From the NCBI GenBank assembly GCA_944390945.1, contig CALXRV010000035.1:1-37957 (forward strand): a DNA stretch of 37,957 nucleotides, in the 5' to 3' direction. Of this stretch, positions 3,187-5,443 are shown piece by piece (positions within the stretch are counted from its first letter, which is position 1; the number at the start of each line of letters is the position of its first letter). Source of the DNA: an uncultured Clostridia bacterium. GTDB taxonomy: Bacteria > Bacillota > Dehalobacteriia > UBA4068. The notes under the pieces were generated by a model that ran no database searches, had not been told where the DNA came from, and saw only the letters and a list, made by a program, of their open reading frames with translations. Made by a program: the position numbers and the translations under genes.

Positions 3187-3954
3187 TCAGGCCAGCTTTT
3201 CTCCCATTCGTAATTTATCTGCAATCATCGCAATAAACTCGCTGTTGGTTGGTTTTCCGCGTTCGATATTGATCGTATAGCCAAAGTAGCGATTCATCAT
3301 ATCCACATTGCCGCGATCCCATGCCAGTTCGATCGCATGCCGGATCGCACGTTCCACGCGAGAAGCAGTAGTATTATGCTTTTCTGCGACCATAGGATAC
3401 AACTCTTTGGTCACTGCACCCATGAGATTCGGCTCTTCCGTAACAAAAGCGATCGCATCACGCAGGTATTGATAGCCTTTTACATGCGCGGGAACCCCCA
3501 TTTGATGCAGGATGCGTGTGATTTCCACTTCCAGTGAGTTGCCGCGCGGCAAGAGGGATACGGTCGCGGTTTCTGTTGTTTCGCTGATCTGGCGGATTCG
3601 CTTTTCGAGGGTATCCAGGTCAAATGGTTTCATCATATAATAATCCGCACCCAGTTCCATCGCCTTCTTTGTTAAATTTGCCTGTGCAAAAGAAGTGATA
3701 AAAATAATTTGCGGCTGTTTGCTTAGATTCATTGTACGGATTTGCTCCAAAACACCGATCCCATCCAGATTTGGCATCACCAAGTCTAGAATCAGAACAT
3801 CGGGCTGATGTTTTTCTACCAGCTCCAAGGTTTTTTGTCCATTGTCGGCAACTCCACATACATGGTAGTGGTCAAATGAAGAAAAATATTCTTCCAGTGC
3901 TGCGGCAAAAATACGGTCGTCATCGGCAATGAGGATTTTGTTGATCGCTTCCAT
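3187..3954 (-). CDS. spo0A: Sporulation transcription factor Spo0A
   Basis: Master response regulator for entry into sporulation, 255 residues, close to the usual length. The N-terminal receiver domain (1-120) has the acidic pair D11/D12, the phosphoacceptor D57 in LILDLVMP and the conserved Lys in MMKPFD. The C-terminal half is the Spo0A-specific DNA-binding domain, with the characteristic [20 protein letters not shown] segment. On phosphorylation the family dimerises and binds 0A boxes (TGTCGAA). The gene lies downstream of spoIVB on the same strand, the common arrangement in Bacillota, but the 197-base gap holds a large inverted repeat and several 0A-box-like sequences, so separate autoregulated transcription is likely. 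A purine-rich GAAAGTGGG precedes the ATG. No sequence fault seen. Confidence 0.97.
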
Positions 3955-4016
3955 CGCTTAACCCACTTTCCTATGTTTTTTCATATGGATATTTTTCCCA
4001 AGGCCTTAGGATATAG

Positions 4017-4122
4017 GTTTTCGACTTGCTTTTGCTAAATCCTGCCGCTTTGATCACGAATCTTATTTATTGTTCCGACAAAATACCCGAATAAACGGGT
4101 ATTTTTGTCGGAACTTGTCGAA
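4017..4122. promoter_or_regulatory. Cluster of Spo0A-box-like sites upstream of spo0A
   Basis: Matches to the 0A-box core TGTCGAA: a perfect one on the plus strand at 4116-4122; TGTCGGA (6 of 7) on plus at 4106-4112, exactly 10 bases from it in the same orientation; TGTCGGA on minus at 4074-4080; and AGTCGAA followed by AA on minus at about 4018-4026. The consensus is established for Spo0A; binding here is inferred. Spo0A autoregulation is known in other Bacillota. Confidence 0.5.
4072..4114 (-). terminator. Long inverted repeat between spoIVB and spo0A (terminator and/or operator)
   Basis: GTTCCGAC and the following bases to 4089 pair with 4096-4114 over about 18 bp with one extra A; the loop is 6 bases. 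It lies 38 bases beyond the spoIVB stop on the minus strand. A/T runs lie within the stem rather than after it, so it is not a textbook terminator, and both arms include a 0A-box-like TGTCGGA. It may end spoIVB transcription, act as a Spo0A operator, or both. Confidence 0.6.
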
Positions 4123-4151
4123 GCGACTCTAGCGCAAAATCAAATTACCTG

Positions 4152-5294
4152 CTACAGGCCAGTAAGCCCAGCCTCTTCCAACATCTGTTCTGCATAGCAG
4201 GCATAGCCTTGTGTGGGGTCGTTCACAAAAACATGCGTAACCGCACCGATTAACCGGCCGTTCTGTATCAGCGGGCTACCGCTCATCCCCTGAATGATCC
4301 CACCGGTTACTGCAAGCAAACGTTCATCCGTAATTTCAATCACCATGCCGCTACCGCCCGACAGATAGCTATCCAGCTGCTTTACAATTTGGACATCAAA
4401 GCATTCAACTTCTTCACCGGAAAGCACGGTATAAAGCTGCGCTGCCCCCAATTCTACTTCATCACTGGACGCAACTGGCAGTAAACTCCCCCCGGCTGCA
4501 GGGAGCTGGTCGAATTGGCCGTAGATACCATGCTCGCCGTTTCTGGTGATGCTGCCTTGCCAACCGTTTTCTAAAAACACGCCTAGCTTTTCACCCGGTG
4601 TACCGACCGCGCCGGCACGGATGCCCTGCACATCTGTGCGCAGGATCAGCCCTTTGTTTTCCCCTTCGACGCCATAGCGCAGATCGCTGACGGTATGGCC
4701 AAGCGCGCCATAAATGCCGCTGATCGGTTCCCAAAAGGTGAGCGTTCCCACTCCAGCCGTATTATCGCGCACATACAGTCCAATGCGATAGCTGCCGCTT
4801 TCGTAGCAATAGCACGGAAATAGCTCTGCCTGTCGTTGGATACCATTACGCAGGTAATCCACGATGCAGCTTTCTCCTGTTTCGCCGGCCTTGGCTATTA
4901 GTGAAGCGATTTCTGCATTGCTATCTACTTTTTCCCCATTGACGGCTGTGATAAAATCACCAATGCGGATGCCCGCATCTTCTGCCGGATTAACATGGCT
5001 GCCATCTGCCAGGACTGCTGGCGAAAGACCAACAACGGATACACCCTCGGTTGAAAGCAAAACGCCGATTGACTGCCCACCGGCATAGACGTCTGGCATT
5101 GCCGCAGCGGCGAGAGAGGCGGCAGGCATGAAAGCCAGCAATAGGGCTGCGATACAGCCGGTTGCCAATCTGCGCAGCCTTTGGGCTGGACTGCGTTGAG
5201 CAGGCCTTGCGACAGCTGTTACATCGTTTACTGCAACTGTTTCAGGCAAGTCTGCAGTTAAATAGTTTTTTTGAATAGATATCCCTCCTTTCAT
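4152..5294 (-). CDS. spoIVB: SpoIVB signalling serine peptidase (S55 family)
   Basis: Forespore-secreted protease that starts the sigma-K checkpoint in the model system by acting on SpoIVFA. Numbered from the ATG at 5294 it has 380 residues: one N-terminal membrane segment (about 42-65), a PDZ domain (about 75-160) and the S55 protease domain. Catalytic-triad candidates are H200 (GALGHTVSD), D323 and S338 (GMSGSP). The C-terminus has the family's THVFVNDPTQGYACYAEQML pattern. Start choice is uncertain: the only good ribosome site, AAAGGAGGG, covers codons 2-4 of this frame, and the ATG at 5294 has none upstream. Seven bases after GGAGG lies an in-frame ATT (5276-5274), a rare start codon that would give 374 residues. 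Spo0A follows on the same strand. Confidence 0.95.
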   Translation of the reverse strand: MKGGISIQKNYLTADLPETVAVNDVTAVARPAQRSPAQRLRRLATGCIAALLLAFMPAASLAAAAMPDVYAGGQSIGVLLSTEGVSVVGLSPAVLADGSHVNPAEDAGIRIGDFITAVNGEKVDSNAEIASLIAKAGETGESCIVDYLRNGIQRQAELFPCYCYESGSYRIGLYVRDNTAGVGTLTFWEPISGIYGALGHTVSDLRYGVEGENKGLILRTDVQGIRAGAVGTPGEKLGVFLENGWQGSITRNGEHGIYGQFDQLPAAGGSLLPVASSDEVELGAAQLYTVLSGEEVECFDVQIVKQLDSYLSGGSGMVIEITDERLLAVTGGIIQGMSGSPLIQNGRLIGAVTHVFVNDPTQGYACYAEQMLEEAGLTGL

Positions 5295-5413: not shown

Positions 5414-5443
5414 GCAGGAAAGGTTTTACGGAAAAGCGAACCT
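5414..5443 (+). promoter_or_regulatory. Candidate sigma-H promoter for the spoIIA operon
   Basis: AGGAAAG (5416-5422), a 12-base spacer and AGCGAACCT (5435-5443) resemble the sigma-H pattern AGGAWWW / RnnGAATWW with mismatches. spoIIA is sigma-H and Spo0A dependent in Bacillus. No clear 0A box was seen nearby. Weak motif match. Confidence 0.35.

Follow-up and report, generated by a model that had tools for sequence, protein, structure and literature searches.

We found three putative 0A boxes upstream of a predicted sigma-H-type promoter, at helically phased and conserved positions, between spoIVB and spo0A in the window (the whole stretch of 37,957 nucleotides that was analysed, from an uncultured Clostridia bacterium). 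The region can be regarded as a well-supported, lineage-specific version of the known spo0A autoregulatory region, in which a probable terminator is nested between the boxes. Judged from its sequence and that of its relatives, it is quite probably an operator through which Spo0A controls its own gene, most likely by stimulating the sigma-H promoter, and from which the terminator of spoIVB is separable.

The positions of the features are collected in Table 1. Read in the sense of spo0A, the spoIVB stop is followed by TTCGACA (box 1), AGT and TCCGACA (box 2), and then by a 25-nucleotide palindromic spacer, TGTCGGA (box 3), GCAGGATTT, 11 nucleotides, GTCGAAAAC and spo0A. Boxes 1 and 2 have the same orientation and a start-to-start distance of 10 bp, forming a head-to-tail tandem that faces away from spo0A; box 3 faces towards the gene, 35 bp from the -35 element. 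These three sites, the exact 10-bp spacing of the tandem and the placement of the inner pair in the arms of a large inverted repeat had all been described in the initial annotation, and each description was borne out. The arms are 100% complementary in both nested repeats (4072-4083/4103-4114 and 4080-4089/4096-4105), and the predicted RNA hairpin has a folding energy of -28.1 kcal/mol, against -9.7 in shuffled sequences (z -7.05). Letters G2, C4 and G5 are kept in all three boxes, the first being a perfect TGTCGAA and the other two TGTCGGA.

Table 1. Features of the spoIVB-spo0A region, numbered along the window
Feature	Position	Strand	Remarks
spo0A	3187-3954	-	Pfam PF08769 (E 3.5e-45) and PF00072; proposed regulator and target
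predicted sigma-H -10 element, GTCGAAAAC	4017-4025	-	overlaps AGTCGAAAA (4018-4026, -)
predicted sigma-H -35 element, GCAGGATTT	4037-4045	-	equivalent element in relatives
hairpin with A-tract/U-tract, core AAAAATACCCG tttatt CGGGTATTTT	4072-4114	-	probable intrinsic terminator of spoIVB; nested between boxes 2 and 3
putative 0A box 3, TGTCGGA (TCCGACA on + strand)	4074-4080	-	spo0A orientation; downstream hairpin arm
putative 0A box 2, TGTCGGA	4106-4112	+	inner tandem member and upstream hairpin arm
putative 0A box 1, TGTCGAA (TTCGACA in spo0A sense)	4116-4122	+	outer tandem member; exact tandem also in L006, L010, L014 and L021
spoIVB (Peptidase_S55 + PDZ)	4152-5294	-	Pfam PF05580 (E 5e-68); gene upstream of spo0A

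Three boxes of the TGTCGNA type within 200 bp compare with a mean of 0.056 in shuffled sequences, none of 2000 shuffles equalling them, a figure that overstates the surprise since two of these boxes are arms of a single hairpin and so depend on each other. A single TGTCGAA is unremarkable (two in the window, 4.4 expected). The exact 10-bp tandem was the sole one within the 1.89-Mb assembly. A search of positions 3900-4200 against Rfam gave nothing but a match to a Salmonella sRNA that, at 23 bits, stayed below the 60-bit cut-off and was judged to be due to chance.

Downstream of the boxes, the predicted promoter takes the form GCAGGATTT-N11-GTCGAAAAC (4045-4017). The sequence overlapping its -10 element, AGTCGAAAA, agrees with TGTCGAA at six of seven positions and had been put forward as a further Spo0A box. 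The site is present, but it is best explained as primarily a sigma-H -10 element, the likely counterpart of 0A4 in B. subtilis, because it fits the type of -10 element found at spo0A in Bacillota and at spoIIA in the window. In Bacillus, Paenibacillus, Brevibacillus and Clostridium, among others, spo0A has a sigma-H promoter of the GAAGGAWTT type, and a TGTCGAA overlaps its -10. At spoIIA in the window, the promoter GCAGGAAAG-N12-AGCGAACCT (5414-5443) likewise has a sigma-H -10 of the GCGAA/TCGAA type and carries AGCGAACC where spo0A has its -10 element. This sigma-H-like promoter has no TGTCGNA box nearby.

We took spo0A loci from the same family and order, together with named Bacillota genomes, for comparison. 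Nineteen genomes were compared in detail: the window genome (L001), 16 from its own family or the sister family to which L022 belongs, and, from a further sister family, L015 and L018. Sixteen of the 19 have an intact TGTCGNA 35-37 bp upstream of a sigma-H -35 element. At this position L002, a member of the same genus, has the degenerate TGTCTTA; the exceptions in spacing were L019 (25 bp) and L010 (55 bp), about one helical turn less and two turns more. Extra boxes were present at 46 and 56 bp in L015, L018 and L007. The closest inverted box lies 30-32 bp upstream of the forward box in 11 of 15 genomes, and at 12, 13, 22 and 22 bp in the other four. Rayleigh tests of helical periodicity gave p values of about 1e-5 to 1e-7, which are descriptive: the genomes are related, most share the modal value, and treating them as independent overstates the significance. 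The extended consensus of the boxes is TTTGTCGNAAYAAA, with position 6 free (T6 C6 G4 A3) and the core letters partly fixed by the search pattern. An extended box pattern, TGTCGNAAYAAAA, was also tried as a marker of spo0A and was rejected as not specific to this gene.

This arrangement suggests how the operator might work. A head-to-tail dimer of phosphorylated Spo0A would occupy the 10-bp tandem (4106-4122), and the protein would also bind box 3, whose fixed distance from the -35 element would keep its rotational position on the helix constant with respect to sigma-H RNA polymerase. From its position, and from the analogy with 0A3 of B. subtilis, our best guess is that box 3 would stimulate the sigma-H promoter during spo0A induction. 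The 0A-like sequence on the -10 element may damp the promoter at high Spo0A~P, and the spoIVB terminator in the spacer would keep spoIVB transcription out of spo0A. We infer binding by Spo0A from the letters of the boxes, their spacing, the conserved DNA-binding domain of the protein and the published binding in B. subtilis and C. difficile. This domain is retained in the window and contains a 15-residue segment identical to the solved Spo0A domain; the closest solved structures to the spo0A product were 1fc3 and 1lq1, the second being a solved complex linked to the tandem Spo0A site of abrB.

In B. subtilis, boxes 0A1-0A3 lie upstream of the Ps promoter of spo0A, with 0A3 activating it, and 0A4 lies on the -10 of Ps, where it cannot be mutated without abolishing the promoter (PMC12090719). 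The window region resembles this Pv/Ps region in having several boxes upstream of a predicted sigma-H promoter, with a further 0A-like box overlapping the -10. It differs in that a crude consensus scan of positions 3700-4400 found no vegetative promoter of the sigma-70/sigma-A type (Pv), in the placement of a box about 36 bp from the -35 with phased partners at 10 bp and about 32 bp, and in the terminator hairpin between two of the boxes. There is a serious rival explanation, in our judgement less likely, in which Spo0A mainly represses its gene, acting on an unrecognised vegetative promoter or as a road-block to read-through, so that the operator would serve shut-off and not a positive loop. 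It departs from the explanation we prefer solely in the sign of the effect. In the modelling of the B. subtilis spo0A region, the joint effect of boxes 0A1-0A3 is mainly repression, and at abrB Spo0A acts as a road-block (PMC12090719). Against repression stand the result of the promoter scan and the position of box 3, which lies upstream of the sigma-H promoter and is phased to it.

On the preferred reading, the palindrome that separates boxes 2 and 3 probably encodes the intrinsic terminator of spoIVB. In the predicted fold a GC stem is followed by a U-tract (TACCCGTTTATTCGGGTA + TTTTGTCGGA), and no second terminator was found between spoIVB and the boxes in the window genome; a default terminator scan did not list the hairpin. 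Its AAAAATACCCG/CGGGTATTTT core is like that of a bidirectional intrinsic terminator (A-tract, GC stem, U-tract), from which it differs in having a stem lengthened by the putative protein-binding boxes. Such a stem might by itself account for the TGTCGG letters, as the arms of a long terminator, and leave the outer TGTCGAA to chance. The perfect pairing with A and U tracts agrees with this, as do the variation of box position 6 such that the arms pair in L001, L003, L004 and L006, and the case of L002, which keeps hairpin and promoter though box 3 is lost and no tandem is present. We nevertheless consider it very unlikely that the region is a terminator and nothing else, since the boxes are kept without a folding spacer and without spoIVB upstream, and so are not a by-product of the stem.

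About half of the relatives have the hairpin in the spacer between the boxes. The spacer folds in L001, L003, L004, L006, L008, L009 and L019 and weakly in L013 and L007; it does not fold in L010, L011, L012, L014, L021 and L022. The initial annotation had set conservation of the boxes beyond stem pairing as one point on which its proposal would turn, and boxes and phasing are indeed present in all six genomes without a fold, as well as in the weakly folding L007. Box letters are also kept in L008, L009, L013 and L019 despite a mismatch in the pairing at box position 6. In L010 a divergent gene, not spoIVB, lies upstream of spo0A, and both the 10-bp tandem and the forward box are retained. In L013 (the same locus as L031, from a Clostridiales MAG) this place is taken by an M23 peptidase gene that has a terminator of its own, and the box pair is kept. 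The divergent neighbour in L010 (G002:C113) is apparently a membrane transporter.

On a tree of Spo0A, several forks of which are weak, there are at least five changes of state for the hairpin and at least five for the tandem. A separate terminator immediately follows spoIVB in L005, L007 and L011. We do not claim as a strict rule that the operator holds a hairpin exactly when no other terminator is present: these three loci fit it, but a second candidate exists in L006, and none is seen in L014, L015, L018, L021 and L022. We infer that operator and terminator share DNA yet are separable in evolution, the terminator not being intrinsic to the operator. The combined terminator and operator that had been proposed is thus supported in part, with the correction that the hairpin is better seen as separable from the conserved boxes. 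It also seems improbable that the two are coupled in function, with Spo0A~P on both arms of the terminator acting as a road-block, or as a DNA bridge over the 32-bp interval, and raising the termination of spoIVB read-through. Were such coupling to exist, Spo0A would both fire its own sigma-H promoter and insulate spo0A from late-sporulation spoIVB.

It is likewise highly improbable that the boxes are real but bound by another TGTCGNA-recognising regulator: the freedom of position 6 makes them looser than the textbook TGTCGAA, but the letters kept (G2, C4, G5) are those at which specific Spo0A contacts are reported (PMC3485338), the site lies at the spo0A promoter, where Spo0A is known to bind, and the DNA-binding domain of Spo0A is conserved. 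The same paper describes binding of C. difficile Spo0A upstream of spo0A with an affinity above any other that its authors had observed (PMC3485338). The C. difficile region is like that of the window in that the Spo0A DNA-binding domain binds there and a consensus box lies near the start codon; unlike the window, it shows no upstream tandem or inverted cluster with a terminator in the passages of that paper that were consulted (PMC3485338).

Autoregulation of spo0A is already established in B. subtilis, and what is new here is the lineage-specific nesting of a probable terminator in a helically phased, probable operator. The comparison provides a phylogenetically supported map of the spo0A operator for a clostridial family on which we found no experimental work. 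Evolution appears to have placed a terminator in the spacer between putative protein-binding sites with their helical phase undisturbed, a warning that a box-like sequence within a terminator stem can be functional and not incidental.

We also examined the 10-bp tandem beyond the window. Head-to-tail boxes with 10-bp spacing form the Spo0A site of abrB, where they lie downstream of the promoter and repress it. The window pair has the same head-to-tail layout at 10 bp, but its place is not downstream of a promoter: about 60-75 bp separate it from the sigma-H -35 element, which it precedes. When TGTCGNA-N-TGTCGNA was searched for in 20 genomes of the family, 10 bp was the commonest of 31 spacings, with 11 cases, whereas the other 30 averaged 2.0. 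Six of the 11 were found at spo0A, in five genomes, L014 having two (three boxes in a row). Within the detailed comparison, the exact tandem is present at spo0A in five of 19 genomes (L001, L006, L010, L014, L021). Looser 10-bp pairs were seen in three others (TTCGACA AGT ATCGACA in L022, TGTCGAT ATC TGTCGTA in L015 and L018), and 11 of the 19 have no such tandem at spo0A even when loose matches are counted. The expectation that the 10-base spacing is kept across relatives thus holds in some lineages and fails in the others.

All five tandems away from spo0A appear non-coding, whereas only four of 18 controls with other spacings fell outside long open frames (Fisher 0.004, or 0.03 if L120, which is non-coding by the chosen start codon, is counted as coding). 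The 10-bp tandem can serve as a signature of probable Spo0A sites in the family of the window. No obvious sporulation role was found for those neighbours of the tandems away from spo0A that were looked up. L123 has a row of three boxes in steps of 10 bp (1620-1646, TGTCGCA ATT TGTCGCA ATT CGTCGAA) ahead of a gene of unknown function.

Other recurring sequences were noted near spo0A. A palindrome, ATAAGGCCTTA (CTAAGGCCTTGG in the window, 3998-4010), follows shortly after the sigma-H -10 in six relatives (L003-L007, L010) and is perhaps another operator or a feature of the 5' end. The palindrome TAAGGCCTTA was left out as a part of the operator; it is clade-restricted and downstream of the promoter, and the other genomic copies examined were mostly coding. 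In a sister family (L111-L119), most loci have a perfect TGTCGAA on the -10, several have another TGTCGAA 64-74 bp upstream, and the -10 box is continued by a stretch that is strongly conserved, AAAACTTTATTACAAGATTAATCTTCAAA. Paenibacillus loci (L047, L051, L054 and others) have a different fixed layout, in which a conserved TTCGACA just before the -35 is paired with the -10 TGTCGAA at 26 bp, and a TGTCGAA is found about 75-85 bp further upstream.
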